A DNA stretch of 64,000 nucleotides from an uncultured Ruminococcus sp. (lineage in GTDB: Bacteria; Bacillota; Clostridia; Oscillospirales; Acutalibacteraceae): the NCBI GenBank assembly GCA_902786345.1, contig CADACB010000001.1, positions 1-64,000 of the forward strand. The letters run 5' to 3'. The notes under the pieces are model-generated. The model was not told where the DNA came from and searched no databases. It was given only the letters and a program-made list of their open reading frames with translations. This document shows, piece after piece, positions 26,734 through 41,881 of this stretch (within the stretch, counting starts at the first letter, position 1; each line of letters opens with the position of its first letter). The translations under genes and the position numbers were made by a program.

Positions 26734-26874
26734 TTATAAACCATACTCATCATCAAGAAGCCTTTTGAGCTTTCTGGACTTTACTGAAAGTATGATATTT
26801 GTAAAAATAATGCCTATAAGTGCAGCAGCAAAAAGAGCTATTCCTCCATAAAACATAATTGTACCCAATGTCAT
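26734..26874 (-). CDS. 46-residue single-span membrane protein
   Basis: A short gene starting at an ATG preceded by AAGGTGATA and located 10 bp after the kinase gene. The product begins MTLGTIMFYGGIALFAAALI, spans the membrane once (about residues 5-30) and ends in a basic segment SVKSRKLKRLL followed by DDEYGL. The ribosome site, the tight spacing and the terminator directly after it all support a real gene. No family is recognised. As the last member of the island it could be a small partner of the adjacent membrane kinase. Confidence 0.6.
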   Translation of the reverse strand: MTLGTIMFYGGIALFAAALIGIIFTNIILSVKSRKLKRLLDDEYGL

Positions 26875-26884
26875 AATTATCACC

Positions 26885-28936
26885 TTAAAAATAACCTTTC
26901 TCTTTTAATTCATCCATATAAGCTCTCATATCAGAAATATAAAGTACGTCATTGCCATTTATGCTGTTTTGCTTGTTGAGCTGTTCTGCCTTATCATATA
27001 ATTCCTTGAAATGCTTATAATCATTTGTCTTATATTTTGCCTGTATATCAAATTCCACCATAGCAAGCCTTGCATATACACTTGCATCATCAGGATAGTC
27101 CTTTGCCATACCGTTCAGAAGCTGACGTGCGCCCACATAATTCTCAACATATTGATATACAGTGGCAAGCTTGAACTTTGTCATTTTCTTAACACTTCCG
27201 CCTGACATCACCTGCTCATAATAGCTGATTGCCTTGTTTGAATACTCCGTCCATTCTGTTGAACCCTGACGCTGATGTTCAGCTTTACCCTTATATGCAT
27301 CTGCAATCATAAGCTTAGCTACCCTCTTACGTGATTCATTGAATAAGCTTTCACTGTTGACAAGATTATCTATTACCTCGTCATAATGTCCTATGTTGTA
27401 ATATATACGATTAAGGTAAAGTGAAGCACGCTGTGAAAGATTGCTGTTTGACGATTTTTCTATCGCCTTCTTAAAACTACGTATAGCAGTTTCACTGTCG
27501 TTTTCTGCATACGCTATTTCAGCCTCTACCAACACAACTGAGGCTTCGTCAAGTCCAAGATGCTTTGCATCCGAAAGTATACTCTTTGCCGAGGAAGTAT
27601 TGTTGTTTCTTGCAAGTGCTATCGCGTAATCACGGTAATATTCTGCATTCTCCTTATTCAGCTCAACTGCTTCTTCATACCACTTTACTGCCTCTGTATA
27701 ATTTTCCTGTTCAAAATACGAGTTTCCAAGGATATAATAAAAATCCGCCTTGTCCTTTTCGGTATCGTCTTTGAAGGTGTGTGCAGCAAGAGTATCCTTT
27801 CCGTATTTTGCGGCTGTTTCAAAGTCGAACTGTTCCGTATATATTTTCATAATACCAAGATATGGAAGTATGCTTTCCGATCTCATATCCATTGCCTCGT
27901 TATAGGCTTGTTCAGCCTGTGAAAAGCTCTTGTTTTCAACATAATTATCTGCAACAGATATTTTTCCGGCAAAGGCTTCATCCGACTCTTTCTGCATTGT
28001 AAAATATCCCCCAAAGGACAGCAACGCCGCGCCTACCATAATTACAGGGAACACTACATTTGAAATAAGTCTTGCCCTTTTGTGTCTGACATATCTTTTG
28101 TCAAGTTTTTTGATATTGTTCAGATCTTTGAGCAGCCTTTCTGCACTCTGATACCGTTCTCTTGGATCATATCTTGTCATCTTATTGACAATATGTATCA
28201 GAGTTTCATCAAAGCCCTCAAAATCGTCAGGTATCTCAGGGATCATTTCGGGATAATGAGGCGGATGCTGAAGTGTGATCATATGGTATATTGTAGCACC
28301 AAGGCTATATATATCCGACCTTTGATCAAGCGGCACCCTCATATCAAAATTATACTGAGGAACAAATCTTTTTCCGGGAACAGGCTGATTAAGCGGCTGA
28401 ATATTAAGATACTGTTCCGGAGAAGCATAGCCCCTGCTGGTAGCACTTATAAAGCTGTCGGGAGTACTTGTAAGTGATACATTAAAATCTATAAGGCATA
28501 TATTTCCTTCAAGGTTTATCATAATATTTGCCGGCTTTATATCACTGTGTATGATAGGCGGCTTTTGTCCGTGAAGATATACAAGTGCTTCTGCTGCCTG
28601 CTTCATCCAATACAAAATATGCTGCTGTGTAAAGCGGTAGTTATTTTTCAGATATTTGTCAACCGATAAGCCCGAAACATAATCCATAACGGTATAGATA
28701 CCGTCCTCAAGCTGTAAAAAGTCATATGCCTGAGGAAGATACTGATGTTTAAGATTTTTGATAATATCTGCTTCTTTACGTGAATCAACCACATTTGCCC
28801 AGCTGTCGTTTATTCGTTTTACAACCACAAACTTTTGCAGGTTAAGATGATAAGCCTTATATACAGTTCCTCCGCCGCCTGCTCCTATTTTTTCCATTAT
28901 CTTGTATGAACCAATCACTGTTCCTTCACTAAGCAT
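26885..28936 (-). CDS. Membrane Ser/Thr protein kinase with extracellular TPR domain
   Basis: A 683-residue Hanks-type kinase. The cytoplasmic kinase domain (about 9-270) has the glycine loop GAGGGGTVY, the ATP Lys in VVVKRI, and the catalytic loop HSDIKPANIM followed by DFN, so HRD has become HSD and DFG has become DFN; Lys, Asp and Asn of the loop are kept. One membrane segment (about 288-308) follows, then some 370 residues of TPR repeats predicted to be outside. AGGAGG precedes the ATG. It lies downstream of two TPR surface proteins. The altered motifs leave activity plausible but unproved. Confidence 0.85.
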   Translation of the reverse strand: MLSEGTVIGSYKIMEKIGAGGGGTVYKAYHLNLQKFVVVKRINDSWANVVDSRKEADIIKNLKHQYLPQAYDFLQLEDGIYTVMDYVSGLSVDKYLKNNYRFTQQHILYWMKQAAEALVYLHGQKPPIIHSDIKPANIMINLEGNICLIDFNVSLTSTPDSFISATSRGYASPEQYLNIQPLNQPVPGKRFVPQYNFDMRVPLDQRSDIYSLGATIYHMITLQHPPHYPEMIPEIPDDFEGFDETLIHIVNKMTRYDPRERYQSAERLLKDLNNIKKLDKRYVRHKRARLISNVVFPVIMVGAALLSFGGYFTMQKESDEAFAGKISVADNYVENKSFSQAEQAYNEAMDMRSESILPYLGIMKIYTEQFDFETAAKYGKDTLAAHTFKDDTEKDKADFYYILGNSYFEQENYTEAVKWYEEAVELNKENAEYYRDYAIALARNNNTSSAKSILSDAKHLGLDEASVVLVEAEIAYAENDSETAIRSFKKAIEKSSNSNLSQRASLYLNRIYYNIGHYDEVIDNLVNSESLFNESRKRVAKLMIADAYKGKAEHQRQGSTEWTEYSNKAISYYEQVMSGGSVKKMTKFKLATVYQYVENYVGARQLLNGMAKDYPDDASVYARLAMVEFDIQAKYKTNDYKHFKELYDKAEQLNKQNSINGNDVLYISDMRAYMDELKEKGYF

Positions 28937-28948
28937 TCATCTTCCTCC

Positions 28949-29308
28949 TTATTCAAGCTCGTATTTGATCATTTCTGAATATCCTTCAGCTCCGGCAAAC
29001 GAACCCATTTCAACACAAACATAAAGATCTCCGTTATTATCTATATATTTAGGTCTGGTAACGTCCTTATTTCTTACGAAATTCAATGTTTTTGCATATA
29101 CCTTATCTATATTATTGTATATATACTCTAAATCCTTGTTTTTTTCACGGACATCAGCAATGGTTTTTCCTTCCTTAATAATATTGCCGTCTTCGTCAGT
29201 AGTAGTGCCATACTTTCTGCAAAAAGCAAGCGAGAGAAAATCTTCGTCATTTTCAAGGTATTCCTTCTCTGTTATTCCTACAGTCTCCAGAACCTCAGCA
29301 CCTGTCAT
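28949..29308 (-). CDS. Frameshifted C-terminal part of the TPR/lectin surface protein
   Basis: A 119-residue frame starting at an ATG that overlaps the stop of the preceding gene (ATGA). Its sequence (VLETVGITEKEYLEND ... YIDNNGDLYVCVEMGSFAGAEG) aligns with the C-terminus of the paralogue at 31312-33096, where it is fused (FEAIGVTEKDFNDN ... YIDENGKLHIMIHTRIFFAAGEG). It is therefore the missing end of the 29305-31293 protein, displaced by one base. It could be made by -1 frameshifting at A AAA AAC (29317-29311) or by coupled restart. As a separate protein it would lack a signal for export. Confidence 0.7.
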   Translation of the reverse strand: MTGAEVLETVGITEKEYLENDEDFLSLAFCRKYGTTTDEDGNIIKEGKTIADVREKNKDLEYIYNNIDKVYAKTLNFVRNKDVTRPKYIDNNGDLYVCVEMGSFAGAEGYSEMIKYELE

Positions 29309-31293
29309 AAGTTTTTTGTGTTCATATCAATGTTATAGGCAAGAAATGCTGTATCGTGCCAGGGTCTGTACTGACACGTTATAACCAGTGATAAAACATT
29401 CTGATAGCTGAATACTTCATATGTTACATTATATGCAAATCCAGTGTCTCCCTCTGTTGCCGCAGCCTTGTCATTTATCTCCTTGTTTATTGCATCCTGA
29501 TCAGAAAATCCGGGAATATCAAGCTGTGGTATATCCATAGTCTTCGTAACATATTTATTGGTTCTATAGTTCTTTTCACGTGCAGTGACTTCTTTTGCTT
29601 TCACAAATGAAGAATAATCCTGCTGCTTCGGGGCATAGTCCCATTCACAGATGAAAATATCAACATCTCTTTCGGTACTGCCGCTGAATGAACCGTCATT
29701 CCACTGCCCGTCCTCATATTTATAATAGAACATAGCATAATGCTCACTGTCGTTTTCATTATTCGGCTCACCGTCAGCCCAGTTTTTGTAATCCGACTTC
29801 TTATTGTTCACCCATTTCCAGCTGCCCTCCTCTTCAGCGTCACTATAGCCGAAATATGCACTTTCACAGCCTTTTCTTTTCATATATTTAAAAAGGGCAT
29901 TATTCTCTTTTTCGTCATTTATTACGGCAAGATAGCCGCCAATTGACTCACAGTATTTTTCTGCAATTTCCCACTTATCAGAAATTTTATCAAAAATATA
30001 ATAGCTGTGTCCGTTATAGGTATAAGCATCGTCAGGTATCTTGTTTTCTGCTTTTTGCTGCTTTACTTCACCCGTTTCCATTATCAGGCCGAAATTTTCA
30101 AGCCCGAAAAATTTCTCTCTGCCACACATACCATCCTCCTGAAGATCGTTCCATTCACCTGCGTGACTGCCCTCCTCAGGTCTGTCCTTGTTATAAATCA
30201 TCAGTCTGTTTTCACTGCCTGTAAAATTATCCGGCTGTCTGACTGCCCAATTTGAGTAACCGAACTGTTCTCCGGTACTCCACACAGGTGTACCGTTTAC
30301 GATTGCTCCGCCAAGCCAGTATGAATTTTTGTTTCCGTTTGAAATAAGCTTTTTTACTGTATCCTGTTCCTCCTGTGAGGTAATTGTCAGAAGATAACCA
30401 CCGTTATCCTTACAATATTTTTCTGCCTCCTCCCATGTCATACCTTGATCAATCAGCCTATATGTATGCCTTACACCATCTATTGTAAGCTTGGCTTCAT
30501 ACCTCATATCTTCAAGCTCTTTAAGCTTTTTCCTGATCTGTTCGGAGTTAGTTTCACTATAGCCCTTTTCAAGTATGGTTTTTGCATCGTTATAGTCACT
30601 GTTTCCTATATAGCCCTCTGCTGCCAGAAGATAAGGCTTTTCTTCCTTAACCTTTATCTCTGCTGCCTGTTTAAAGCTGCCGGCTGCTTCGGTGTATTTG
30701 CTATCGGCAAGAAGCTTCTGTCCGCTTTCCATAAGCTCATTATACTGCTTCTCTTTTTTAAGCACCTCAAGTCTTGTTTTAAGGGATTCATCTTTTGTCT
30801 TTGAATAGCCTTCCTCAAGTGCCTGTATTGCACCTTCAATATCACCCTTGCCGATATATGAGTCAGCAAGCTTTTTATAAAGCTCAGGGTCATTCGGCTC
30901 AAGCTCTATCGCTTTTTTAAATGCGTCAATTGCATCGTCATAGTTTTCTTCACTCAGATATTTTTCTCCAAGCGAGATCTGATCTGAAAGCTCATTTCCG
31001 TTATTCTGTGACATTATTATAAACACTGCCGCCGCTGCACCTATGATAACAGCACACACAACTGCAATTATTACAATAAGCTTACCCTTTGACTTTTTCT
31101 TTTTAGCAGGCTTTTCTGAGACCTTTCTATTTTCAGGCACAAACTGATTCTGCATATCAAAGCTCTGAAATACGGACGTCTGTTCCGGTTCAACAGGTGC
31201 AGCAGGTCCTTCACCTTCATACGCCGTTCCGCACTTCGGGCATATAACGAATTTTTCATCAAATACCGCTGAACATTTTTTACAAGTCACCAT
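29305..31293 (-). CDS. Zinc-ribbon, TPR, double C-type lectin surface protein (frameshifted at 3' end)
   Basis: A 662-residue membrane protein. A zinc ribbon (CKKCSAVFDEKFVICPKCG) lies in the cytoplasm, one membrane segment follows (about 73-95), then outside TPR repeats (100-260), lectin domain 1 (about 270-405, with QPD and WND), lectin domain 2 (about 420-545, with EPN and WND) and the start of an RsiV/DUF3298-like domain (PQLDIPGFSDQDAINKEI). The last domain is cut off by a stop at 29305; the next frame completes it. QPD and EPN are the galactose- and mannose-type calcium-site motifs of C-type lectins. Its N-terminal half is nearly identical to the paralogue upstream. Confidence 0.8.
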   Translation of the reverse strand: MVTCKKCSAVFDEKFVICPKCGTAYEGEGPAAPVEPEQTSVFQSFDMQNQFVPENRKVSEKPAKKKKSKGKLIVIIAVVCAVIIGAAAAVFIIMSQNNGNELSDQISLGEKYLSEENYDDAIDAFKKAIELEPNDPELYKKLADSYIGKGDIEGAIQALEEGYSKTKDESLKTRLEVLKKEKQYNELMESGQKLLADSKYTEAAGSFKQAAEIKVKEEKPYLLAAEGYIGNSDYNDAKTILEKGYSETNSEQIRKKLKELEDMRYEAKLTIDGVRHTYRLIDQGMTWEEAEKYCKDNGGYLLTITSQEEQDTVKKLISNGNKNSYWLGGAIVNGTPVWSTGEQFGYSNWAVRQPDNFTGSENRLMIYNKDRPEEGSHAGEWNDLQEDGMCGREKFFGLENFGLIMETGEVKQQKAENKIPDDAYTYNGHSYYIFDKISDKWEIAEKYCESIGGYLAVINDEKENNALFKYMKRKGCESAYFGYSDAEEEGSWKWVNNKKSDYKNWADGEPNNENDSEHYAMFYYKYEDGQWNDGSFSGSTERDVDIFICEWDYAPKQQDYSSFVKAKEVTAREKNYRTNKYVTKTMDIPQLDIPGFSDQDAINKEINDKAAATEGDTGFAYNVTYEVFSYQNVLSLVITCQYRPWHDTAFLAYNIDMNTKNL

Positions 31294-31311
31294 ATTATAC
31301 TCCCCCTGTCA

Positions 31312-33096
31312 TCAGAATTCATACTCAACCATTCGTCCACCTTCTCCTGCGGCAAAAAATATGCGGGTGTGTATCATAATATGCAGTTTGCCGTTTTCAT
31401 CAATATATTTCTTATTATCAGCACTGTTTGGGATAAAGGATTCTGTTCCTTCTAGCGTAATTGAAAGCTGCTTTTCAATTTCCTCTCTTGTAAAGCTGTT
31501 ATCGTTTTTATTCAAAGCTTTATATACATCATCCATAGTATCGCCTTCACTTATAACAATTCCGCTATTATCAAGACTTTTACTGTTTTCCTTAATAAAT
31601 ACCCTAGTAACATTCTTCTCAAGATTATCATTGAAGTCCTTTTCCGTTACTCCTATAGCCTCAAATATATCATCATTTCCTGCGATCGTTTTGTCCTTCA
31701 TATTTATATTATAAATATAATAATTACGATAATTATTATTTCCTGCGGTTAAAACCACTAAGGACATTATGTTTTTATAGCTGTATACATGGTATTCCTG
31801 ACCTGACACAAAAAATTCATCACGATCAGGATCTTTTTTATAAAGCTCCATTATCTGTTCATTGATGCTGTCCTGCTCATCAAGTCCGGGAATATCTAAC
31901 TGAGGCATATCTGCATACACATATTCATATTTATCATTGGATAACCATTTTTTTGCTCTTACCCTTTCAGCACTTACAAACGAAGAATAGTCCTTTGGTT
32001 TGTTTATCTCTTCTGTTACCTCATCAAGCTTCTTTTTGACCTGTTCAGATTTCGTTTCCTTATAACCCTTTTCAAGTATTGCCTTTGCATTGTCAAGATC
32101 TTCACATTTTATATAGCTATCTGCTGCTGAAAGATAAGGCTTTTCTTCCTTAACCTTTATCTCTGCTGCCTGTTCAAAGCTGTCTGCTGCATCGGAATAA
32201 TAAGTATCGTCAAGCAGCCTCTGTCCGTTTTCAATAAGCTCGATATACTTTATCTCTTCTTCAACAGCATCAAGTCTTTTTTTGATCTGTGAGGAATCTG
32301 TTTCATTATAGCCTTTTTCAAGTATGGTTTTCGCTCCGCTGTAGTTTTCGTTTCCGATATAGCCATCTGCCGCAGAAAGATAAGGCTTTTCTTCCTTCAC
32401 CTTTATCTCTGCCGCTTGTTCAAAACTGCTGACCGCTTCAGTATATTTCTTTTCATCAAGAAGTTTCTGTCCGTTTTCCATAAGCTCGTCATACTTCTTA
32501 TCTTTTTTCAATACATCCGCCCTCATTTTAAGAGATTCGTTTTTTGTCTTGGAATATCCCTCCTCAAGTGCCTGTATTGCACCGTCAATATCACCCTTGC
32601 CGATATATGAGTCAGCAAGTTTTTTATAAAGCTCTGAGTTATTCGGTTCAAGCTCTATCGCCTTTTTGAATGCGTCAATTGCATCGTCATAGTTTTCTTC
32701 ACTCAAATATTTTTCTCCCAACGAGATCTGCTCCGAAAGTCCATTATCATTATTCTGTGACATTATTATAAACACCGCCGCAGCTGCACCAACGAGAACA
32801 GCACACACAACTGCAATTATTGCAATCAGCTTTCCTTTTGACTTTTTCCTTTCGGTCTTTTCAGACACAAACTGCTCTTTTACATCAGAGATGTGAGCGT
32901 CAGCTTCATCCTGTTCAGCAGGCTGCTTCTGTATATCAGACACCTTTATATCAACTGTCTCGGGCTGAGCGGCCTGACGAACAGTAGCAGAAGTATCAGC
33001 AGCACCGGGAACATCATCTTCATATACTGTTCCACACTTCGGACATATAACGAATTTCTCATCAAATACCGTTTCACAATTCTTACAAGTTACCAT
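31312..33096 (-). CDS. Zinc-ribbon, TPR surface protein with RsiV-like C-terminal domain
   Basis: A 594-residue membrane protein: N-terminal zinc ribbon (CKNCETVFDEKFVICPKCG), an acidic linker, one membrane segment (about 87-110), TPR-like repeats outside (115-370) that recur in units of about 65 residues (KVKEEKPYLSAADGYIG), and a C-terminal RsiV/DUF3298-like domain starting at YADMPQLDIPGLDEQD. It is the intact paralogue of the next gene, without the lectins. GGTGG precedes the ATG and a promoter with an inverted repeat lies upstream. RsiV-type domains bind lysozyme in Bacillus anti-sigma factors; binding here is unknown. Confidence 0.8.
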   Translation of the reverse strand: MVTCKNCETVFDEKFVICPKCGTVYEDDVPGAADTSATVRQAAQPETVDIKVSDIQKQPAEQDEADAHISDVKEQFVSEKTERKKSKGKLIAIIAVVCAVLVGAAAAVFIIMSQNNDNGLSEQISLGEKYLSEENYDDAIDAFKKAIELEPNNSELYKKLADSYIGKGDIDGAIQALEEGYSKTKNESLKMRADVLKKDKKYDELMENGQKLLDEKKYTEAVSSFEQAAEIKVKEEKPYLSAADGYIGNENYSGAKTILEKGYNETDSSQIKKRLDAVEEEIKYIELIENGQRLLDDTYYSDAADSFEQAAEIKVKEEKPYLSAADSYIKCEDLDNAKAILEKGYKETKSEQVKKKLDEVTEEINKPKDYSSFVSAERVRAKKWLSNDKYEYVYADMPQLDIPGLDEQDSINEQIMELYKKDPDRDEFFVSGQEYHVYSYKNIMSLVVLTAGNNNYRNYYIYNINMKDKTIAGNDDIFEAIGVTEKDFNDNLEKNVTRVFIKENSKSLDNSGIVISEGDTMDDVYKALNKNDNSFTREEIEKQLSITLEGTESFIPNSADNKKYIDENGKLHIMIHTRIFFAAGEGGRMVEYEF

Positions 33097-33164
33097 TTAA
33101 AATTCCACCCTTCATCATTTACAGGCTTTTGATGTTATACTGTTTGAATGATAAAATTATTTCT

Positions 33165-33225
33165 GATATATACTGATATTATTTCTTTTCAAAAACATTC
33201 CTTTTTAAAGGGAGATAATATCAGT
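33165..33225 (-). promoter_or_regulatory. Promoter with long inverted repeat before the TPR genes
   Basis: On the - strand TTGAAA (33192-33187) and TATATC (33170-33165) are 16 bp apart. An 11-bp inverted repeat, ACTGATATTAT at 33172-33182 and ATAATATCAGT at 33215-33225, encloses the -35 and may be an operator or an mRNA stem. Confidence 0.45.
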
Positions 33226-33253
33226 CTTTTACACTCAACGCCGATTTTAAAGC

Positions 33254-33281
33254 AGAAGCACCGGATTCAAACGGTGCTTCT
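33254..33281 (-). terminator. Terminator after the FHA genes
   Basis: AGAAGCACCG pairs with CGGTGCTTCT; on the - strand GCTTTAAAA follows. It separates the FHA genes from the TPR genes. Confidence 0.55.
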
Positions 33282-33337
33282 GTCATTTTGTCGGTCAATC
33301 GTCAGCGGACTGACTCGCTGTATTATGATGATCTATC

Positions 33338-33946
33338 TCAATCTCTGCTGAAATCCTTCCAGGAAAAGTTCTCTCCGCACAGAGGTACAAAAATAAATTC
33401 AGATCTGCCAATCTCAAGCTTATCCTTTGCCTTGAGCTGAACATTTTCAAGAACAACTTTATCATTTACATAAAACAGCTCTCTTGATTCTCCGGGCTGT
33501 GCAATAAATATGCTCTGCTTGGGAACATATGTAATAACTGCGTGCTTCTCTCTTGAAATTGCATCATCATTTTCGATAACAATATCCATAGCCCGTGAAC
33601 GTCCTATAAAGTTCCTGTTTTCTCTTATGGGATATGTTTTACCTTCGGAAGGACCTTTCACACAAACCAACCATCCTACAGTAGGCTGCCTGTTACGGTC
33701 ATCATTTTCCTGCTGTACAGGATAAGCTGCGGCTGCCTGCTGCTGAGGCATAGGCGGAACAGGAGGTACAGGCGGTACAGCGGGCTGATACTGCGGCCGG
33801 TAATTATACTGATAATTATTGTATTGATATTGTGCCTTTTGCTGAGGCTGCTGTACTGCAGCTGCCGATGGATTACAGAAAGGGCAATACATACTTTTGT
33901 TCATATCGTAATAATGTCCGTTTGGACACTGTACTACTTTTCTCAT
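33338..33946 (-). CDS. Zinc-ribbon FHA-domain protein
   Basis: A 202-residue cytoplasmic protein. The N-terminal ribbon is CPNGHYYDMNKSMYCPFC, a Pro/Gln/Tyr-rich linker runs to about residue 85, and an FHA domain fills 90-195 (NFIGRSRAMDIVIENDDAISREKHAVI), keeping the GR, S and H residues that hold phosphothreonine. The end, PLCGENFSWKDF, is shared almost word for word with the 35176-36453 protein. No STNG motif is present; its place is taken by ELFYVNDK. It probably reads phosphorylation by the island's kinases. GAAGGAG precedes the ATG. Confidence 0.88.
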   Translation of the reverse strand: MRKVVQCPNGHYYDMNKSMYCPFCNPSAAAVQQPQQKAQYQYNNYQYNYRPQYQPAVPPVPPVPPMPQQQAAAAYPVQQENDDRNRQPTVGWLVCVKGPSEGKTYPIRENRNFIGRSRAMDIVIENDDAISREKHAVITYVPKQSIFIAQPGESRELFYVNDKVVLENVQLKAKDKLEIGRSEFIFVPLCGENFSWKDFSRD

Positions 33947-33966
33947 AATTATTCTCCTTCTCTTAA

Positions 33967-35175
33967 TTATAGTAATCTGAATTGATTTTCTCCCTTTCCG
34001 AGTGAAATAACACTGCCCCTCGGAAGCTGTGTTTCCTGATTGTTAGGAAGCTGTTTATCGTTTGCGTAAGTACCGTTAGATGAGGTATCTATCACTTTAT
34101 AGCAATTTGTATAGGGATCGTATTTAACCGAACAATGTGACCTGCTTATATCCTTGCTGTCGGACGAGAATACGATATTGCTGACAGAAGGATCTCTTCC
34201 CAATATAAGCTTTATTCCGGGCTTCAGATCAATAACTGCTGTTTTATATTCACCCTTTATACCTTCTATTGCACCTTTCTGCGGCTCTGTTGGTGAATCA
34301 TCATCATTTGCAATCACATGATCTGACTGTATGGGAGATACAGGAACAGGCGGTATACTTGGAACAGGCGGTGCACTTGGTGCAGGATTTGCAGCAGGTA
34401 CAAACAGCTGATCAGACGGCGGTAAATGTGTGCCCTGTACATTCTGAAAACCCTTAGGCTGATTCTGAACTGCACCGGGACTATAACCCATAGTATTATT
34501 ATTCACATACTGATTTGAGGGAGGAACAGCAGGTCCGCCGAAACCGAAATGAGGTGCTTTTGTATCCGGTGCGAAAGCAGCAGAATCAGACAAGCCAAGG
34601 CAGCAAAATACTAATGTCAGCACAGAAAATATCGTCATAAGTATCGGTCCTATCCCAATATGCATATTATTAGAACTGTAATAACTGTATTTTGAAGGCA
34701 TATCATTCATAAAGTTATTCATGCTTATAATGAAAAATATGGTTGAACCCAGCATAAAAACTGAAAGTATAAGGCCAATAACAGCGCCTGTCAGTGCAAT
34801 AGATCTTCCGGTACGCTTGAATTGGAGACACTTGCCGCACACAACCACAAGTACTACAAGTATCAGACCAAAGAACACTACTGTTGAACCTATGATCTGT
34901 ATAAGTGTGGAAACCGCCAGTGATTTATAGCTATCCATATCATAAAGGTTATAGAATTTGTCCCAATTTTTTAATATTTCAGAATTAGAGTTTTCAAAAG
35001 TCCACATTTTCAACAAATTTGTATTGCTGTCGGCATAAAACGGCACAAACGACATACAGAACGTTGCTATTGAAAAGAGTATAGCACCAACTATTGATAT
35101 TATAGACATAACACTAAATGAATTTTTCTGTGTAACTGGGCGCACTGCTCCGGGATTATAATACTGATTATTCAT
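33967..35175 (-). CDS. Four-span membrane protein with C-terminal FHA domain
   Basis: A 402-residue protein. Four hydrophobic segments lie between residues 18 and 200 (the first MSIISIVGAILFSIATFCM). A Pro-rich linker (about 215-290) leads to an FHA domain at 300-402 with LGRDPSVSNIVF, ISRSHCSVKYD and the binding motif TSSNGTYAND. Both termini should be cytoplasmic. It begins at the stop codon of the preceding FHA gene and probably couples a membrane event to phosphothreonine recognition. No known transporter or enzyme motif is seen in the membrane part. Confidence 0.87.
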   Translation of the reverse strand: MNNQYYNPGAVRPVTQKNSFSVMSIISIVGAILFSIATFCMSFVPFYADSNTNLLKMWTFENSNSEILKNWDKFYNLYDMDSYKSLAVSTLIQIIGSTVVFFGLILVVLVVVCGKCLQFKRTGRSIALTGAVIGLILSVFMLGSTIFFIISMNNFMNDMPSKYSYYSSNNMHIGIGPILMTIFSVLTLVFCCLGLSDSAAFAPDTKAPHFGFGGPAVPPSNQYVNNNTMGYSPGAVQNQPKGFQNVQGTHLPPSDQLFVPAANPAPSAPPVPSIPPVPVSPIQSDHVIANDDDSPTEPQKGAIEGIKGEYKTAVIDLKPGIKLILGRDPSVSNIVFSSDSKDISRSHCSVKYDPYTNCYKVIDTSSNGTYANDKQLPNNQETQLPRGSVISLGKGENQFRLL

Positions 35176-36453
35176 TTATTTTTCCTCCTTAATATCATCC
35201 CAAGAAAAGTCTTCGCCACACAGTGGGAAAAACAACAGTTTTGTTGATCCTGCCGTCAGTATATCATAAGCCTTAAGGCTTTCATTTTTGAGCACTGCCT
35301 GATCATTCTTATAAAACAATTCCTTTGAATCTCCTGCCTGTACAAAGAATTGCTTTTCACGAGGCTCATAAATTACAACAGCGTGATTGTAATTTGATAC
35401 TCTGTCATCATCCGCAAGACAAACATCTGCTCCCTGTGCACGGCCTATAATGTTCTTTCCGCTCTTAAGCTCAAAGCTTTCACCGTAATATCTTCCATTT
35501 ACGCATATAAGCCAACCAACAACAGGCTCTGACGAAAATTTTGAGTTCATAAGGCTCACTGTAGGATTATCATTATACATTACAGGGGAATTCATTGCAT
35601 TCTGAACAGCTGCACCATAGCTGATCTGCGGCTGCGGAGGCTGAACCGGCATTTGATACTGGGGCTTAGGTACAAACTGCGGTTCAGGATTATTCTGCAT
35701 CGGAGGAGTATACTGTGGTTCTGGTTTGTTTTGTAACGGAGGTGTAAACTGGGGCTCTGAATTGTTCTGTGCCATAGGTGAAACCAACGGCTCGGTTTTG
35801 TCTTCGACCACCGGAGGCATGTACTGTGGTTCCGGCTTACTCTCCTGTACCGGAGGTGTGTACTGTGGCTCGGGCTTATTCTCCTGTACCGGAGGTGTGT
35901 ACTGTGGTTCAGGCTTACTCTCCTGCATCGGAGGCGTATACTGTGGCTCGGGCTTATTCTCCTGTACCGGAGGTGTGTACTGTGGCCCGGGCTTATTCTC
36001 CTGTACCGGAGGTGTGTACTGTGGCTCGGGTATGGACTGTATGCCTGCCGAAGGTCTTACAATAGGCACAGTAGCATCTGGATCTTCATCGCGTTCTGCT
36101 GCGGCAGCAACACTGCTGTTGGAATACAGATCAATGCCAGTTTTTTCAAGCTTAATAGTTTTGTTCTCTGATATGTCATTGTCTAAAGATGAAAAAATCT
36201 CCCTGCTGTCAGAAAACGCACCTGCCCTGTCAGCACCATTATCCACACCCATTGCACCGCAGTGAGGACAAGACGCAAATTTGTCACCGTCATAAAAGTG
36301 ACCCTTAGAACATTTTTGCAGCCCTGTCTTTTTTCTCTCTACTGCCGGTTCCTCTTTGACTGTGCCGCTGTCTATATCCTTTGCACCGCAATGAGGACAC
36401 ATCTCAAACCTGTCACCATCATAGTAATGACCGTTTATACATCTTTTTACCAT
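35176..36453 (-). CDS. Double zinc-ribbon, proline-repeat FHA protein
   Basis: A 425-residue cytoplasmic protein. It has two near-copies of a zinc ribbon (CINGHYYDGDRFEMCPHCG and CSKGHFYDGDKFASCPHCG), an acidic stretch, a Pro/Gln/Glu region built of 13-residue repeats of the type PEPQYTPPVQENK (about 145-285), and a C-terminal FHA domain (NIIGRAQGADVCLADDD, VSNYNHAVVIYE) ending PLCGEDFSWDDIKEE. The FHA domain matches the one at 33338-33946. AAAGGAGG precedes the ATG. The repeat arm looks like a flexible spacer or a binding platform. Confidence 0.87.
   Translation of the reverse strand: MVKRCINGHYYDGDRFEMCPHCGAKDIDSGTVKEEPAVERKKTGLQKCSKGHFYDGDKFASCPHCGAMGVDNGADRAGAFSDSREIFSSLDNDISENKTIKLEKTGIDLYSNSSVAAAAERDEDPDATVPIVRPSAGIQSIPEPQYTPPVQENKPGPQYTPPVQENKPEPQYTPPMQESKPEPQYTPPVQENKPEPQYTPPVQESKPEPQYMPPVVEDKTEPLVSPMAQNNSEPQFTPPLQNKPEPQYTPPMQNNPEPQFVPKPQYQMPVQPPQPQISYGAAVQNAMNSPVMYNDNPTVSLMNSKFSSEPVVGWLICVNGRYYGESFELKSGKNIIGRAQGADVCLADDDRVSNYNHAVVIYEPREKQFFVQAGDSKELFYKNDQAVLKNESLKAYDILTAGSTKLLFFPLCGEDFSWDDIKEEK
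35810..36035. repeat. 39-bp tandem repeats inside the FHA gene
   Basis: About six units of 39 bp encode PEPQYTPPVQENK-type repeats, several almost identical at the DNA level (TCCTGTACCGGAGGTGTGTA recurs). The length is an exact multiple of three, so copy number can change without breaking the frame. Confidence 0.85.
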
Positions 36454-36570
36454 ATTAAAAATTCCTCCTTTGAATTTTTACATTGATATAATGATTATAT
36501 AATATTTAAACAGAAAAATTAATACTATAATTGTAAATTTTTGTATATTTTACAGATATTTCTGTTTTTT

Positions 36571-37500
36571 CTACAGCGACGACTCAAATGCTTTTATTGT
36601 GACACCCGATTCTTCAGCCGCACTAAGTATAAACTGAGGCAGCGGTTTTATGGGGCGTTCTTTATTCATATCAATTTCAAGTTCCGTACAGTCATATATC
36701 ACCTCAAGAAGCTTGCCGGCATTCATAAGTTCTGTTTTATCGTCATCGAATACACCTCTTATATATTCCAGTTCCTTCGGGAATATTTCACCGTTGTCTA
36801 CATCAGAACAGTAAAAAAGAACAGAAAGAAGATCTCTGACATCCTTTGCTGCAGCAGCCTTTTTTGCATTCTCATCAGTCTGATCCAATACCGTTCCGGA
36901 AAATCCACTCAGAACAGCCATAGCATTCATTGACGAATCACTCACTATCCTTATACTTTCTGCTCCTATACATCCGTGATATATCCCTCTGCTGTGCATA
37001 AGCTTCATTGCAGCTGCAACCGGCATAAGCAAAGCTTTCAGTTCTTCATATTTTATTGTCCCCATCCTATTAATAAAGTCCTTAAGAGATTCATCAGGAC
37101 TATATCCAATAACAGCAAAACTCAAATGAGCGTCTGTCCTATATGTATATATCTTCGGCAAATATGCAAGATATGCTTCAGACAATTTTCTGCATACATC
37201 TACAAAGGCTGCATTACGCATGTAACTCAGATAAGCCGTGTTTTCTTCTCTGGCATTACTATCTTTATATAAAAGCTGACGGATAACAGTTTTTCTTCTC
37301 ATAACCGCATCATATGCGATATAAGAAACACCCTTATCATCCTCATAATATGCCCTTCCAATAAAATATCTGTTTTCAAAAAGCTCGGGCTTCATCCACC
37401 CTTCTTTGGGTATATAGCTGCTTTCATCAAAACCGCAGTAGGGACATACATTACAGTCATTCTCCGGCAGTCCTGAAAGGCACGACAGGCAATAATCCAT
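36571..37500 (-). CDS. Zinc-ribbon pseudokinase
   Basis: A 309-residue cytoplasmic protein with a Cys-rich N-terminus (CLSCLSGLPENDCNVCPYCG) and a protein-kinase fold, in the same order as the kinase at 38786-40081 (RYFIGRAYYEDDKGVSYIAYD versus RYLIGRAIGAGGFGITYSAYD). The catalytic residues are gone: the glycine loop is broken, the ATP Lys region reads KTVIRQL, the HRDxxxxN loop reads YHGCIGAESI and DFG reads GFS. It should be unable to phosphorylate and probably acts as a scaffold or allosteric partner. The ATG at 37500 has better spacing to GAGGAG than the one at 37506. Confidence 0.8.
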   Translation of the reverse strand: MDYCLSCLSGLPENDCNVCPYCGFDESSYIPKEGWMKPELFENRYFIGRAYYEDDKGVSYIAYDAVMRRKTVIRQLLYKDSNAREENTAYLSYMRNAAFVDVCRKLSEAYLAYLPKIYTYRTDAHLSFAVIGYSPDESLKDFINRMGTIKYEELKALLMPVAAAMKLMHSRGIYHGCIGAESIRIVSDSSMNAMAVLSGFSGTVLDQTDENAKKAAAAKDVRDLLSVLFYCSDVDNGEIFPKELEYIRGVFDDDKTELMNAGKLLEVIYDCTELEIDMNKERPIKPLPQFILSAAEESGVTIKAFESSL

Positions 37501-37608
37501 TTTCATTCTCCTCTGTCACTTTTATAGAATAAAGATCAGCACCAAAGCTGTCCTGATTATATTTTAAGTAATATCAGTTTACAATCTGTAAACCTACGGA
37601 ATATATCA

Positions 37609-37986
37609 TTATAAAAACTGCACCTGATGGCTGACATTTGCAAGAACAAGGATCGTTCCTGCTGGAATAGTGACAGGTAGGTTCTTCGGCAAGCGCTGTC
37701 CGTTAAGATAAACACCGTTTGTAGAATAATCGGTTACAATAAAAACATTGCGTTTACCGTCATATGCTGCCAAGCAGTGAAACCTGCTTATATCACGCGA
37801 GGGTACAGCGAGTTCACAACTTCTGCGTGACCTGCCTATGCGAACACTCTCAAGAGAGCCTACTGTCACCGAGTTTCCATTACCCTCTCCGCTAATGACG
37901 GTTATTCTTCCCCTGCGTGAATTTGTGCTTGTTATCACAGAGATCTCCGCATTGCCCCTTGTTGTCAGTCTTCTATATAAATTCAA
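37609..37986 (-). CDS. Stand-alone FHA-domain protein
   Basis: A 125-residue protein that is little more than one FHA domain: VRIGRSRRSCELAVP, ISRFHCLAAYDGKR and DYSTNGVYLNGQRLP hold all the phosphothreonine-binding residues. The start is a TTG at 37986 about 10 bases after AAAGGAG; the ATG between them is in another frame. It follows the PP2C gene by 15 bp. It may be a free adaptor or a competing phospho-reader. Confidence 0.85.
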   Translation of the reverse strand: MNLYRRLTTRGNAEISVITSTNSRRGRITVISGEGNGNSVTVGSLESVRIGRSRRSCELAVPSRDISRFHCLAAYDGKRNVFIVTDYSTNGVYLNGQRLPKNLPVTIPAGTILVLANVSHQVQFL

Positions 37987-38001
37987 TATACATCCGCTCC
38001 T

Positions 38002-38799
38002 TTAACTACACCGTATAAGAACAACCGTTGTATTATCCTGAGAACCGGCTGAATATTCCATAGCACATTCTGTGATGGTATCCGCCGCTTTTTGAAGATC
38101 ATAATAATTATCAACAACAGACGCAAGTATCATATCATTATTCAGCGTCTTATATACTCCGTCACTGCAGAGTATAATAACATCTCCCGGATAAAGTCTG
38201 AAATGCTCATTATTTATATCTATCAGCGAAAGCTCTCCCATTCCGAGATAGCTTATCAAAGCTTCTGCCTGAACGGATTCACGTATGTATTCCTCCTGAC
38301 TAAGTTCTCCCTTTTGAAGCCTGTCATCAAGTATCAGCCTGTAGTTATGTTCACGCACCACACAATACAAAGCATTGTTCCTGATTATATATATCTTGCT
38401 GTCGCCTACCGAAAGCCAATCCGTCATATCGTTCTTTATAAAAACAGATACTATCGTAGTACCTGCTCCAAGCTTGTTTTCGTTTTCATCACATAAGTCA
38501 TATACAAGCTTGTCAAGCTTTATTGCTTCTTCCCTGAAAAAGACTCTTGCGTCCGTTACAGGTGTTCTTATAAAGTCCTCTGTCAGAACACTTATTCCCA
38601 GCGCACTTGCCCTTTCTCCTCCTGCAAGGCCTCCCATTCCATCACATACTACCGCAAGCTTACCCTTATCTGTGTCTATTATAGCATAGGAATCCTGCTG
38701 ATACTTTCTCGTGCCAATAATGCTTGAAGCACACATTTCAATTTTCAGATCGGATACGAGCTTTTCCGTAACTGCACTTCCATGATCAGCTTTGAACAT
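38002..38799 (-). CDS. PP2C-family protein phosphatase
   Basis: A 265-residue metal-dependent Ser/Thr phosphatase, the expected counter-enzyme of the neighbouring kinases. Motifs: GTRKYQQDSY, VVCDGMGGLAGGERAS, SVGDSKIYIIRN, CSDGVYKTL and the terminal SQDNTTVVLI, which together supply the metal-binding Asp residues. The ATG at 38799 is 9 bases after GGAGG and lies inside the end of the kinase gene, overlapping it by 14 bases. This coupling suggests kinase and phosphatase are made in a fixed ratio. Confidence 0.93.
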   Translation of the reverse strand: MFKADHGSAVTEKLVSDLKIEMCASSIIGTRKYQQDSYAIIDTDKGKLAVVCDGMGGLAGGERASALGISVLTEDFIRTPVTDARVFFREEAIKLDKLVYDLCDENENKLGAGTTIVSVFIKNDMTDWLSVGDSKIYIIRNNALYCVVREHNYRLILDDRLQKGELSQEEYIRESVQAEALISYLGMGELSLIDINNEHFRLYPGDVIILCSDGVYKTLNNDMILASVVDNYYDLQKAADTITECAMEYSAGSQDNTTVVLIRCS

Positions 38800-40081
38800 A
38801 ATCATCGTCCTCCAATATAAGCCTGCACCTTGTATTTGCAAGAACAATAAGATCGCTGTTGCCCACAAAATACTTTACACCTTTTTCTATCCTCACATAA
38901 TTTACATATGTTCCGTTTGTTGAATAATCCTCAATGCAGAACTGCTGTTTTATACTGTCATATGTTACCGTACAGTGAGTCTTGCTTATACTCTCACAGT
39001 TTTCTATCACTATATCACATTTCTGTGACCTTCCGATAACAACAGTACGATCATCCTCAACATTTACCATACAGGCGGTTTCACCATCAACGCTGACGGT
39101 GAGGTAATGCTTTCTTTCAGAAAACACTTCATCGTTTTGAGAATGCTCAAGAAGATCAAGAAAATCCCCTACTGTGCGAAGTCTGTCCTTGGGTTCAATT
39201 GCAAGAGCCATATCCACTGCTTCTGAGGCTTCTTCGGTAACATCATTTCTTATTTTGCACAGAGGAATATAGCCTGCTCCCCTTAATCTTTCTGTAGCAG
39301 GTGGGATTATTATTGCCGTCAGCATATAGTAGTAGGTTGCCGCCAAAGCATAAAGATCTGTAAACGGTCCCTGTCTGCCAGCTTCCGAATACTGCTCTAT
39401 CGGTGCAAAACCATGTTTAAGAGTTATGGTATAGTTACTGTCCTTAAGAAAAAAACTCTTTGCACTGCCAAAGTCAATTATAACAACCCTTCCAGTGGGC
39501 AGTATCATAATATTCTCAGGGCTTATATCTCTGTGAAGATAGCCTTTTTCCTTATGTACTATATCAAGATTCTTACCGACTTTCTTTATTATATCATCAG
39601 CAAGTGCCTTGTTCATACCGCCGAAGGGTATCATACTGAACAGCGATACTCCGTCAAGATGCTCCATAACATAATAAGCAGTGCCGTTTTCCTCAAAGTG
39701 ATCAGATATGTTTACTATACCTGATATATTGTTAAGGTCACTTATTATCTCAGCTTCTGACATAAAGTTACTTATGCCGTGACGATACTCGTTCTCAATA
39801 TTGCTCCGTGTACAGTATACCTGTATTCCGTCGCTTGCCCTTACTGCCATTCCCAGCGGAAAATATTCCTTCACACATACTCTAATGTCATTAACCGTAT
39901 CATAAGCACTGTATGTTATTCCGAAGCCTCCTGCTCCGATAGCACGTCCTATAAGATACCTTTCCCTCAAGAGACTAAACATTTTCAGATTTGATGAGCT
40001 GTCGCTGAAATCAAGCTCATATCCGCATTCACTGCATTTCTTGTTATCCATTGCATTTTTAAAACAGTCCGGACAAATCAT
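38786..40081 (-). CDS. Ser/Thr protein kinase with zinc ribbon and C-terminal FHA domain
   Basis: A 431-residue cytoplasmic kinase. A Cys-rich ribbon (CPDCFKNAMDNKKCSECG) leads to a Hanks kinase domain (about 38-310) with GAGGFGITY, VCVKEYFP, the catalytic loop LHRDISPENIM and IDFGSAKSF, all intact. The C-terminal FHA domain (about 325-425) has VIGRSQKCDIVIEN, ISKTHCTVTYD and DYSTNGTYVN. No membrane segment is seen, unlike PrkC/PknB. It is the best candidate for the active kinase of the island and could bind its own phosphorylated partners. AAGGTG precedes the ATG. Confidence 0.93.
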   Translation of the reverse strand: MICPDCFKNAMDNKKCSECGYELDFSDSSSNLKMFSLLRERYLIGRAIGAGGFGITYSAYDTVNDIRVCVKEYFPLGMAVRASDGIQVYCTRSNIENEYRHGISNFMSEAEIISDLNNISGIVNISDHFEENGTAYYVMEHLDGVSLFSMIPFGGMNKALADDIIKKVGKNLDIVHKEKGYLHRDISPENIMILPTGRVVIIDFGSAKSFFLKDSNYTITLKHGFAPIEQYSEAGRQGPFTDLYALAATYYYMLTAIIIPPATERLRGAGYIPLCKIRNDVTEEASEAVDMALAIEPKDRLRTVGDFLDLLEHSQNDEVFSERKHYLTVSVDGETACMVNVEDDRTVVIGRSQKCDIVIENCESISKTHCTVTYDSIKQQFCIEDYSTNGTYVNYVRIEKGVKYFVGNSDLIVLANTRCRLILEDDDYVQS

Positions 40082-40099
40082 ACTCTCACCTTTTCCACT

Positions 40100-41836
40100 T
40101 TACAGTCCTGCTATAATTATCCTTGCTTTTCCGGCAGTAATAACATCATTTACATTCAGTCTTACCTTTGATGAAAGTCTCACACCATTTACAAACGTGC
40201 CATTTGTTGAAGCAAGATCGCTTATATAGCAGCCGTTATTTTCCCTCTCTATGATAAATTGCTTGCGTGCCATATACTGATCGTCAATGCAAATATCACA
40301 CGCCTTGCTTCTTCCTGCAATAAGCTTATTTTCAAGCTTAAGCTCTGTCGTTCTGAACCCTCCGCCTTCAAGCTCTATCTGAAGATTTATGACACCGCTT
40401 AACGGATATGCCTGCTCAACCGGGTATTGATAACCGAAGGACTGTTCATCATATTCGTAATCCTCATCAGATCTCTTCTTTTTTGATGCCCATCTTATAA
40501 GAACTATGAATGTCACGATAACACCTGCTGTTATCACAGCAGCTGCCGCAATAAGAACGATTCCCTTCCACGACGTTATAAAAACAATAAACTCATTCTG
40601 CGGCTCCGCTCCGTCAAAATATACCTGCAATTCCCCGTCAATACTGTTCTTTTCCATTGAACGATCACTTATGTTTTTACAGATGATCTTATAATCGCCC
40701 TTTATTATATCCTGACGGAATGTAAGCACTGAGATATATTCATTTGCATTTTCCTCATAAGCTGCCTTTTCAGGTATAACTGCCCTGCCTGCTGAATCAA
40801 CAAAGCAATAGCAGTCTGCATTGTCAGCATTGATAACATCCTCACTGAAATACAGCTTCACTGTGTTACAGCCCTCAAGAACTGCCTTTGTCAGCACAGG
40901 AGGTACTGTATCAGGCTGCCACCTGAACATATATGTTCTTCTTACCTTTGTGATGTCTTTGTCAATAAACTTTACTGAAAAATTGTTTTCACTGTTATTT
41001 ACAATATTATTTTTTGCTCTGAAAACAACGGCATATGAATTTTGTATCTCATCATATATTTCATTTACCGAATTCATTACTTCACTTTCGCTCTCAGGAA
41101 TAAGTATTCTGCCGCCTGTTCTACGTGAAAGTTCCCCAAGCTTTTGGTTTTCTTCAGATGCAGACCTCACAAAGGAAACCGTATATACCGGAATATTATA
41201 TTTCAACAGCTGCTCCTCTGTTTCTTCAATCGTTTCCTTGCCTGCTGCAAAGTCATATCCGTCGGTAAAAAGTATGCATTCGTGTCTTTTATATTCACTG
41301 CTGTTATTACCGTCGGCAAGTCTTGCTGTAAAAGCAAGTGCAGAATAAAGCGAGGTTTTGTTGCTTGTTGCTCGCAGACCATCAAGCACCAGCGAAAGCT
41401 CCTTTTCTTTTTTATCAGAACGGTATTCCTCCTTAACATCACTACCGAAAGATATAACAGAAAGTCTGTCTTTATCTCCAAGCCTTGAGCTTAAGCTTAT
41501 AACCGAGTTTTTCGCCTGAGAAAAAACTTCTTCTCCCACAGAAGCAGAGGTATCAAGAATTATATAGTAGTCCGTTCCGTCATTGGTTTCGGAAAATCTT
41601 ACCGTTTCAACACATTCAAGCGTTCTATCCTCGCAGAATGCCGCAATATTCTCTTTTTTTGCCTGTGACTCGTCTATATTGCTGAAATAAGCTCTTATCT
41701 CAGGCATATTGACATACACCTGCTCTATTTCTGACACAGTTACTCCATCAGAAGTTGCTCCGACTGAATTTGAAAACACCGTCAGGACAGCACACAAAAC
41801 AGTAAACAACACACAAGACTTAAATTTCAGATTCAT
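40100..41836 (-). CDS. Surface VWA-domain protein with cytoplasmic FHA domain
   Basis: A 578-residue membrane protein. A signal peptide (residues 1-26) precedes an extracellular von Willebrand A domain with the metal site DTSASV and TDGYDF (about 75-265), then a linker domain. One membrane segment (about 428-450) is followed by basic residues and a cytoplasmic FHA domain (AGRSKACDICI, MARKQFII, DLASTNGTFVNG). This topology could carry an outside binding event to the phospho-reader inside. ATG 41836 follows GGGGG; an earlier in-frame start adds 14 residues that spoil the signal peptide. It is first in the run of FHA and kinase genes. Confidence 0.9.
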   Translation of the reverse strand: MNLKFKSCVLFTVLCAVLTVFSNSVGATSDGVTVSEIEQVYVNMPEIRAYFSNIDESQAKKENIAAFCEDRTLECVETVRFSETNDGTDYYIILDTSASVGEEVFSQAKNSVISLSSRLGDKDRLSVISFGSDVKEEYRSDKKEKELSLVLDGLRATSNKTSLYSALAFTARLADGNNSSEYKRHECILFTDGYDFAAGKETIEETEEQLLKYNIPVYTVSFVRSASEENQKLGELSRRTGGRILIPESESEVMNSVNEIYDEIQNSYAVVFRAKNNIVNNSENNFSVKFIDKDITKVRRTYMFRWQPDTVPPVLTKAVLEGCNTVKLYFSEDVINADNADCYCFVDSAGRAVIPEKAAYEENANEYISVLTFRQDIIKGDYKIICKNISDRSMEKNSIDGELQVYFDGAEPQNEFIVFITSWKGIVLIAAAAVITAGVIVTFIVLIRWASKKKRSDEDYEYDEQSFGYQYPVEQAYPLSGVINLQIELEGGGFRTTELKLENKLIAGRSKACDICIDDQYMARKQFIIERENNGCYISDLASTNGTFVNGVRLSSKVRLNVNDVITAGKARIIIAGL

Positions 41837-41840
41837 TCTG

Positions 41841-41864: not shown

Positions 41865-41881
41865 CTGTTTTGTATCATACT

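Follow-up and report, generated by a model that had tools for sequence, protein, structure and literature searches.

An uncultured Ruminococcus sp. (NCBI GenBank assembly GCA_902786345.1) carries on contig CADACB010000001.1 a compact island of genes for phosphothreonine signalling and surface proteins. In the window, the 64,000-nucleotide stretch of this contig that was analysed, the island consists of 13 closely spaced open reading frames (ORFs) on the minus strand at 26734-41878, preceded by a gene for a LytTR response regulator at 42087-42800. This number includes an ORF of 46 amino acids (aa) at 26734-26874 and a 119-aa fragment at 28949-29308, and drops to 12 when the fragment is taken together with the ORF next to it. 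In the order of transcription, the LytTR gene is followed by genes for a VWA-FHA protein, a zinc ribbon-kinase-FHA protein, a PP2C phosphatase, an FHA-only protein, a zinc ribbon-pseudokinase, a double zinc ribbon-Pro-rich-FHA protein, an FHA protein with four transmembrane segments, a zinc ribbon-FHA protein, a TPR protein, a protein with TPR and two lectin domains, the 119-aa remainder, a TPR kinase and, finally, the 46-aa transmembrane protein (Table 1). Writers, an eraser, readers, a scaffold candidate and probable clients are thereby assembled in one place. It is a real, conserved and accessory phospho-signalling island, the function of which we infer. No description of it was found in the openly licensed literature.

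Gene content and conservation of the island

A preliminary description, made from the sequence alone, had recognized on a single strand two kinases, a PP2C, a pseudokinase, six FHA domains, zinc ribbons on six proteins, and VWA, TPR and C-type lectin ectodomains. The ORFs lie where it placed them, all on the minus strand, and these domains are confirmed by Pfam matches, alignments and cysteine pairs; the LytTR gene and a frame break at a run of A residues (29312-29317) had been overlooked. Zinc-ribbon cysteine pairs are present on six island proteins, with all matches of the Pfam zinc-ribbon models to island proteins below the cut-offs, and TPR matches occur in 26885-28936, 29305-31293 and 31312-33096. 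Five FHA domains score above the curated Pfam cut-off (40100-41878, 38786-40081, 37609-37986, 33967-35175 and 33338-33946). The sixth, in 35176-36453, reaches 18.4 bits against an FHA cut-off of 20.7, and 33.4 bits with Yop-YscD_cpl against a cut-off of 33.2. In a Pfam search for FHA domains through the whole genome, which missed the weakest of the island, five of the six matches fall within the island. Because of this, and because the gene order recurs in relatives, the clustering is more than chance.

Within the genus the island is accessory, its VWA part being found in 8 of 64 genomes (this and the following counts include the own genome). In the family this part is present in 4 of 398 genomes, the other three carriers belonging to other genera, and a profile of the VWA protein finds it in 8 of 391 genomes of the class. 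According to the preliminary description, a lack of joint conservation in relatives would refute its reading; this is not what is found, as the core order recurs in all seven other carriers of the genus and, partly, in ten genomes outside it. The genes for the kinase-FHA protein, PP2C and FHA-only protein, and then the pseudokinase, are found in all seven, directly in six and with one extra kinase between in G052 (genomes are designated G, loci L). The zinc-FHA and transmembrane FHA genes come next in five of the seven; the contig of G033 stops earlier and G052 has kinases up to the contig end. Farther away, the core (two PP2C, zinc-FHA, VWA-FHA and kinase genes) is found again in three other genera of the family. 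Seven out of seven genomes from two other families have a first PP2C, then a transmembrane FHA protein, a second PP2C, a zinc-FHA and a VWA-FHA protein, with a zinc-ribbon-type kinase ahead of this run in five of these class-level genomes; it was not seen in L119 and L123, which lie near contig ends.

The LytTR gene of the window has a perfect TTGACA-17-TATAAT promoter. By eye, TTGACA and TATAAT boxes 17-18 bases apart are found upstream of the LytTR gene in G007, G022 and G047, and not in G039, G052 and G460. The gene itself is at the equivalent place in five of the six same-genus relatives whose contig extends there (not in G033), and also in G460. In all six same-genus relatives having the region, a second PP2C gene and one for a zinc-ribbon FHA adaptor lie ahead of the VWA gene, at the place of the 208-bp gap of the window. 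When this second PP2C is searched for in the own genome, the matches are limited to the island PP2C and the phosphatase next to the PASTA kinase; the upstream zinc-FHA gene was not found there with PF00498, a model that can overlook adaptors of this type. Downstream, a 241-bp gap with an inverted repeat may separate the core and the surface proteins into two transcription units.

Table 1. Features of the island in the order of transcription (TM, transmembrane; positions refer to the window).
Feature	Position	Strand	Basis or remark
Sigma-70 promoter TTGACA-17-TATAAT, 12/12	42905..42933	-	upstream of the LytTR gene
LytTR response regulator, probably the first gene of the island	42087..42800	-	Pfam LytTR, 76 bits
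208-bp gap	41879..42086	-	two genes here in 6/6 same-genus relatives with the region
Signal peptide - VWA - beta-sandwich - TM - cytoplasmic FHA	40100..41878	-	Pfam VWA and FHA; hydrophobic segments 17-35 and 440-458
Zinc ribbon - Hanks kinase - FHA, catalytic residues intact	38786..40081	-	Pfam; alignment of 11 orthologues
PP2C phosphatase, metal-binding motifs intact	38002..38868	-	Pfam; alignment of 11 orthologues
Small FHA-only protein, canonical GR / SRxH / NG residues	37609..37986	-	Pfam, residue inspection
Zinc ribbon - pseudokinase	36571..37506	-	weak Pkinase match; alignment of 8 orthologues
Two zinc ribbons - long Pro-rich linker - FHA	35176..36453	-	Pfam, linker motifs
Four TM segments - linker - FHA, canonical residues	33967..35175	-	Pfam, hydrophobicity
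Zinc ribbon - FHA adaptor (GWLV class)	33338..33946	-	Pfam; without the -15 threonine
241-bp gap with inverted repeat 33252-33283	33097..33337	-	weak terminator at best
Zinc ribbon - TM - extracellular TPR - C-terminal domain without family (earlier labelled RsiV-like)	31312..33096	-	Pfam, hydrophobicity
Zinc ribbon - TM - TPR - two C-type lectin domains - start of the same C-terminal domain as in 31312-33096	29305..31293	-	Pfam
119-aa ORF, resembles the remainder of the C-terminal domain of the lectin protein	28949..29308	-	after the frame break at the A-run
Hanks kinase - TM - extracellular TPR	26885..28936	-	Pfam, hydrophobicity, tree
46-aa protein, one predicted TM segment; may close the operon	26734..26874	-	without family match

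The island is flanked by a queuosine cluster on the plus strand (43140-46039) on one side and by a spoVA-type gene (26261-26680) on the other. A signature of foreign DNA is lacking in that G+C is 35-44% throughout and no tRNA gene is present in the window, integrases not having been searched for. Between 25000 and 47000 there is no Rfam match at the gathering threshold. A role in anti-phage defence was considered and rejected: with PADLOC, the three kinase-like proteins among seven island proteins match kinase models (best MAD6, 170 bits) and the other four match nothing.

Catalytic domains, readers and surface proteins

Both Hanks kinases and FHA domains are widespread among bacteria. The Pkinase model matches the TPR kinase with 124 bits and the zinc-ribbon kinase with 83 bits. 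In the latter, the Lys, HRD and DFG residues are kept in all 11 aligned orthologues; in the TPR kinase, HSD and DFN replace HRD and DFG with retention of the aspartates, and the G056 orthologue does likewise. Neither of the two has PASTA repeats among the Pfam matches listed (for the TPR kinase, the best 25 of 30), and the PASTA kinase of the genome sits on contig C25 with an adjoining PP2C gene. The island PP2C (PP2C_2, 39 bits) probably starts inside its ORF, near 38800, and its active-site residues are retained in 11 of 11 aligned orthologues. In the pseudokinase, the VAIK lysine has become arginine and the HRD aspartate is missing in all eight aligned orthologues. An intact DFG is found in none of these eight; the aspartate at this place is kept in five, not including the copy of the window. 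This protein has a zinc ribbon and no predicted transmembrane segment. In G052 (L055:1-7175), several zinc-ribbon kinases (two of 731 and 1064 aa and a further, partial one) are found after the FHA-only gene, around the pseudokinase; this is also the sole searched carrier with an EssC match.

Three of the six FHA domains in the window have the full canonical set of residues (GR, S..H, NG). In the zinc-ribbon FHA adaptors, the linker varies except for one constant element, a threonine followed by I, V, M or L at position -15 from the GWL of the FHA core, mostly in a K/R-T-[IVM] setting. It is present in all nine upstream adaptors and in seven out of seven adaptors of two further clostridial families, with L001 having it at -16. 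Among Bacilli homologues above 70 bits it is found in 26 of 27, the remaining one having no GW landmark, and these counts are not independent since the sequences are closely related. The position was first noticed in a Bacilli set and afterwards checked on the adaptors available, the seven clostridial loci having been gathered for another reason. This makes for a precise phosphosite prediction that holds in adaptors of the Oscillospiraceae type, of other clostridia and of Bacilli. In the downstream zinc-FHA and Pro-rich adaptors of genus and family, a threonine is located at 14-16 in only 7 of 15. The adaptor 35176-36453 of the window has six YTPP repeats in its linker and threonine motifs DPDATV and NPTV, the threonine of NPTV standing exactly 15 residues ahead of the FHA core.

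By analogy, this suggests that the -15 threonine is the likely phosphosite of the zinc-ribbon FHA adaptors, in a switch reminiscent of GarA and OdhI. According to PMC8546545, the latter two also have a threonine in a flexible N-terminal extension ahead of the FHA domain, which is phosphorylated by a Hanks kinase. In contrast to GarA/OdhI, the island adaptors add a zinc ribbon and the sequence setting described above, and phosphorylation and closure are only predicted here. A second threonine motif, in its strict form two acidic residues in the four preceding the threonine and then V or I, is found 20 times in 23 adaptor linkers of Oscillospiraceae against 1.7 expected (standard deviation 1.3, maximum 7 in 2000 shuffles), and is present in 13 of the 23. 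Its density is 1.08 per 1000 residues in the island versus 0.60 in neighbouring ORFs. In G007, a zinc-ribbon surface protein (L048:17956-19998) has a cytoplasmic tail in which DPDAT is repeated five times, by its sequence a candidate docking array for phosphothreonine.

With regard to the surface proteins, the VWA domain (60 bits) is predicted to be extracellular on the basis of a signal peptide and a transmembrane segment, and the ATG at 41836 is probably the true start. In an AlphaFold model of this protein with a predicted local distance difference test score (pLDDT) of 79.6, the top Foldseek match is a chain of the ArnAB complex 8s05, and GarA is among the matches. A second structural alignment returned mainly VWA domains, and therefore hardly probes the other parts of the protein. 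The two Lectin_C domains (96 bits) have the motifs QPD...WND in one and EPN...WND in the other, which we take to be sugar-type motifs. The 119-aa ORF is cut off from the lectin gene by the frame break, and its sequence is similar to the C-terminal part of 31312-33096 (E 1e-12, 31% over 120 columns). The break may be real, slippage-prone or an assembly or sequencing error. The RsiV-like module of the preliminary description found no support: a lysozyme receptor of the RsiV type would have a DUF3298/DUF4163 domain, but Pfam gives no match at E up to 5, the sole match in a PDB sequence search is a surface antigen (E 0.018), and the AlphaFold model, with a pLDDT of 46.6, is too poor for use. Homology of the C-terminal domains to RsiV is thus unsupported.

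Ectodomains seem to be exchangeable while the FHA domain is kept. Fusions of an S8 subtilase and of an M4 (thermolysin) peptidase to VWA-FHA are encoded near the core in two other genera (G335 and G445; L071:4639-8571 for the subtilase and L069:14754-19256 for the thermolysin fusion). In L118 the neighbourhood of the cassette contains genes for an FHA-FHA-ABC exporter (11320-13635), an architecture reminiscent of mycobacterial Rv1747, and for an M15 peptidase (5645-6553).

Kinship with type VII secretion and resemblance to other systems

In a tree, the TPR kinase and its G056 orthologue are sister to four kinases from type VII secretion system (T7SS) loci of the genus, one of which is a 227-aa fragment, with a support of 100/99. 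Identity to two of these T7SS-locus kinases is 31-34% over 531-647 aligned columns. The EssC loci of the same-genus genomes G037, G046, G023 and G044 encode kinases and TPR proteins matching those of the window, and a LytTR gene comes after EssC in G037 and G044. The TPR protein and LytTR match T7SS-locus proteins over short stretches, TPR repeats in the one case and the DNA-binding domain in the other, and these matches may be generic. In a same-genus T7SS locus, L087, a trypsin-like-FHA protein (16369-18033) and a giant of 3375 aa (2442-12569) are encoded.

Outside the genus, a kinase related to the T7SS-locus kinase of G046 is encoded near the core in G335 (402 bits), G460 (391 bits) and G445 (partial, 232 bits). 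A PP2C stands beside it in G335 (231 bits) and G460 (209 bits), and the same two genomes have a DUF6382-FHA protein, the architecture of TseJ, near the core. A giant gene adjoins the core run or the LytTR gene in G335 (2689 aa), G460 (2099 aa) and G445 (1860 aa). Pieces of these giants match T7SS-locus giants with 111, 73 and 272 bits, respectively; Ig domains are matched clearly by Pfam in G460, but weakly in G335 and G445.

These combinations are reminiscent of the subtypes T7SSd/e/j. According to Garrett et al. 2024 (PMC11217815), a membrane Hanks kinase (TsxD), a PP2C (TsxF), FHA proteins (TsxJ, DUF6382-FHA) and Ig-like giants (TsxI) are encoded together in these subtypes, TsxD has an extracellular helical or TPR region, and threonine phosphorylation is raised as a control of T7SS. 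The island likewise has a membrane kinase with extracellular TPR, a PP2C and FHA proteins; this TsxD-likeness was judged against kinases of EssC loci in the genus rather than named TsxD proteins. Unlike T7SSd/e/j, the island has no EssC/TsxC or WXG100 match and adds a membrane VWA-FHA protein, a zinc-ribbon pseudokinase, zinc-ribbon FHA adaptors and lectins. Neither DUF6382-FHA (TsxJ) nor an Ig giant (TsxI) is among the Pfam matches listed for the island proteins (best 25), such proteins being found near the core in other genera only.

The motor of type VII secretion is not found in the own genome, in which the best match to the EssC model TIGR03928 is a 1007-aa FtsK frame with 97.7 bits against a cut-off of 778. 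This frame is also the single FtsK_SpoIIIE match, and PF06013 (WXG100) has no match. A search of 11 carriers, which did not extend to seven class-level carriers, gave no EssC match in 10 of them (four genera, own included), G052 being the exception. In the same ten carriers, WXG100 is absent or below the cut-off. Completeness is 74% for G039, 84% for G056, 88% for G022 and G033, 99% for G047, 95% for G335 and G445, and 100% for the own genome.

That the island belongs to an active T7SS of this genome can therefore be rejected, with neither an EssC nor a WXG100 match. The preliminary description had stated that no type VII secretion gene is present. This stands as far as EssC and WXG100 are concerned, and needs correcting in that the TPR kinase groups with T7SS-locus kinases of the genus. 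Judged from the sequences, the island is not a T7SS, yet phospho-regulatory parts are common to both, and this kinship of a kinase-PP2C-FHA-VWA module is unexpected. Since parts of the regulatory half exist without the motor, the island also has a bearing on the origin or the break-up of type VII systems. It could tentatively be imagined, as a possibility that we consider rather less than even, that clostridial islands of this kind form a motor-less, type VII-like envelope assembly. They would combine the kinase, phosphatase, FHA and giant parts of T7SSd/e/j, with export replaced by a phosphothreonine-gated display of exchangeable tethered proteins (VWA, lectin, subtilase, thermolysin) and with zinc-ribbon FHA adaptors as switches.

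As in EssB/EssC of T7SSb (PMC11217815), a pseudokinase is partnered with FHA domains, but that of the window has a zinc ribbon and no predicted transmembrane segment, and there is no EssC match. The archaeal motility module ArnA-ArnB (PMC6509490) also has a zinc-finger FHA adaptor, a vWA/beta-sandwich protein, kinases and a phosphatase encoded together. There, the adaptor FHA binds the phosphorylated vWA protein in the cytoplasm; the VWA domain of the window is predicted to be extracellular. Zinc-ribbon kinase, PP2C and vWA genes are also combined in GAP1-N2 conflict loci. In those loci (PMC7159879), however, the vWA protein is standalone, and the theme is actinobacterial only and centred on a GTPase. 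The Pfam matches listed for the island include neither a GTPase nor MoxR.

A possible docking network and its alternatives

To our knowledge, phosphothreonine-gated control of clostridial surface proteins has been little studied. Phosphorylation and FHA binding gate the type VI secretion system, and such gating has been proposed for some T7SS subtypes; by analogy, the island could be a membrane-bound phosphothreonine docking network that controls anchored surface proteins, a reading to which we give an even chance. The two Hanks kinases, one soluble with a zinc ribbon and an FHA domain and the other a membrane protein with TPR, would phosphorylate threonines in the adaptor linkers and in the cytoplasmic tails of the surface proteins. 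The marks would be read by the FHA domains of the VWA protein, the four-transmembrane-segment protein, the adaptors and the kinase itself, and would be erased by the PP2C, with the pseudokinase serving as a scaffold. The adaptors would probably be switches like GarA and OdhI, in which the phosphorylated -15 threonine binds its own or a neighbouring FHA domain. The balance of marking and erasure would then select which VWA, TPR and lectin ectodomains join a surface complex, and expression would be set by LytTR. Gene content, gene order, topology from hydrophobicity, catalytic residues, the place of the threonine, the relation of the TPR kinase to T7SS-locus kinases and the lack of an EssC match are what is observed; from these we infer every phosphorylation and binding step, the pseudokinase as a scaffold, the assembly of a surface complex and the direction in which control runs.

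Several observations weigh against this docking network. The FHA domain of the VWA protein has AR for SR in all six same-genus rows and Q for H in five of them, and may therefore not bind phosphothreonine in the conventional manner; the NG turn is missing in two of the six FHA domains of the window, those of the zinc-FHA class. The upstream zinc-ribbon FHA adaptor is missing from the island of this genome, and the adaptor 33338-33946 has no -15 threonine, as is the case for several orthologues. The acidic-threonine motif was defined only after the sequences had been inspected and is only mildly enriched in its strict form over the whole island (44 versus 28, standard deviation 5, maximum 42 in 200 shuffles). 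This strict form occurs in none of 20 sequences of the Bacilli set, where M or L comes after the threonine; widened to T[VIML] it occurs in 20 of 20, a widening that is post hoc because of the failure of the strict form. Finally, G033, G445 and G335 showed no LytTR gene next to the core, and the distal surface genes vary between relatives and, in view of the 241-bp gap, may be a separate unit.

The preliminary description had favoured sensing from the outside: the ectodomains would bind sugar or wall ligands and signal to FHA adaptors through the kinase/phosphatase balance. In such a reading, the adaptors would be soluble and act on metabolism or transcription. The membrane kinase with its extracellular TPR, the motifs of the lectin domains and the regulator in front of the island are in accordance with this. 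However, three of the four single-pass surface proteins lack a kinase domain, and a tail of FHA or zinc ribbon alone looks like the receiving end of a signal; in addition, the FHA-linked ectodomains of other genera include proteases, resembling outputs rather than sensors. Control of surface assembly from the inside fits at least as well, and we consider the outside-in direction unlikely, though worth keeping in mind. That the distal genes differ among relatives and follow a gap with an inverted repeat could also mean that a conserved soluble/VWA phospho-module (42800-33338) merely neighbours an unrelated surface-protein operon (33096-26734), the same TPR kinase being found only in G056 among the seven genus relatives (the contigs of G007 and G033 end too early to tell). 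This division is given a low probability, as the distal proteins have the zinc-ribbon tail in common with the core adaptors, and a zinc-tail gene with a single transmembrane segment also comes after the core in G007, G039, G056 and G460.

The kinship of the TPR kinase, the weak LytTR and TPR matches, the presence, in three other genera, of a T7SS-type kinase and a giant close to the core (in two of them with PP2C and DUF6382-FHA) and the frame-broken gene would fit a leftover control unit of the T7SSe/j type, which has lost EssC and WXG100 and is decaying or acts in trans on another export route. Decay is unlikely because active sites stay intact in carriers without an EssC match, across four genera and 10 of the 11 searched, and carriers are not enriched in T7SS, an EssC-type match above 300 bits being present in one of the eight carriers of the genus as against 16 of its 56 genomes without the island. 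A leftover of this kind seems improbable. A controller of cell-envelope stress and wall growth, as a specialised parallel to PrkC-PrpC, is very unlikely. A gene at 25481-25909, which we take to be mraZ, lies nearby, an M15 peptidase gene is found near the core in L118, and an FHA-FtsW fusion is encoded elsewhere in the own genome. But a PASTA kinase with an adjoining PP2C is already present on another contig, the island occurs in just eight of the 64 genomes of the genus, and the spoVAE, mraZ-like and queuosine genes were not found beside the island in the compared stretches of relatives.

The fusion just mentioned, of FHA to FtsW/RodA, is located on contig C16 of the own genome (G000; L056:2506-4263) and adjoins a gene similar to 21493-23823 of the window. 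FHA-bearing frames of about 560-600 aa are found in many genomes of the genus, that of G000 being the only one scanned for domains. In the Bacilli, homologues of the zinc-FHA adaptor and the PP2C are part of a run (L007:11751-19038) with a protein of about 722-759 aa that has no Pfam match, a DnaJ protein, another FHA protein and a TssD/Hcp-like protein (E 0.0013, below the cut-off). Similar runs are found in L010, L016, L023, L031 and L035, with the domain scan covering L007, and this type of run is possibly an uncharacterised system in Paenibacillus and its kin.

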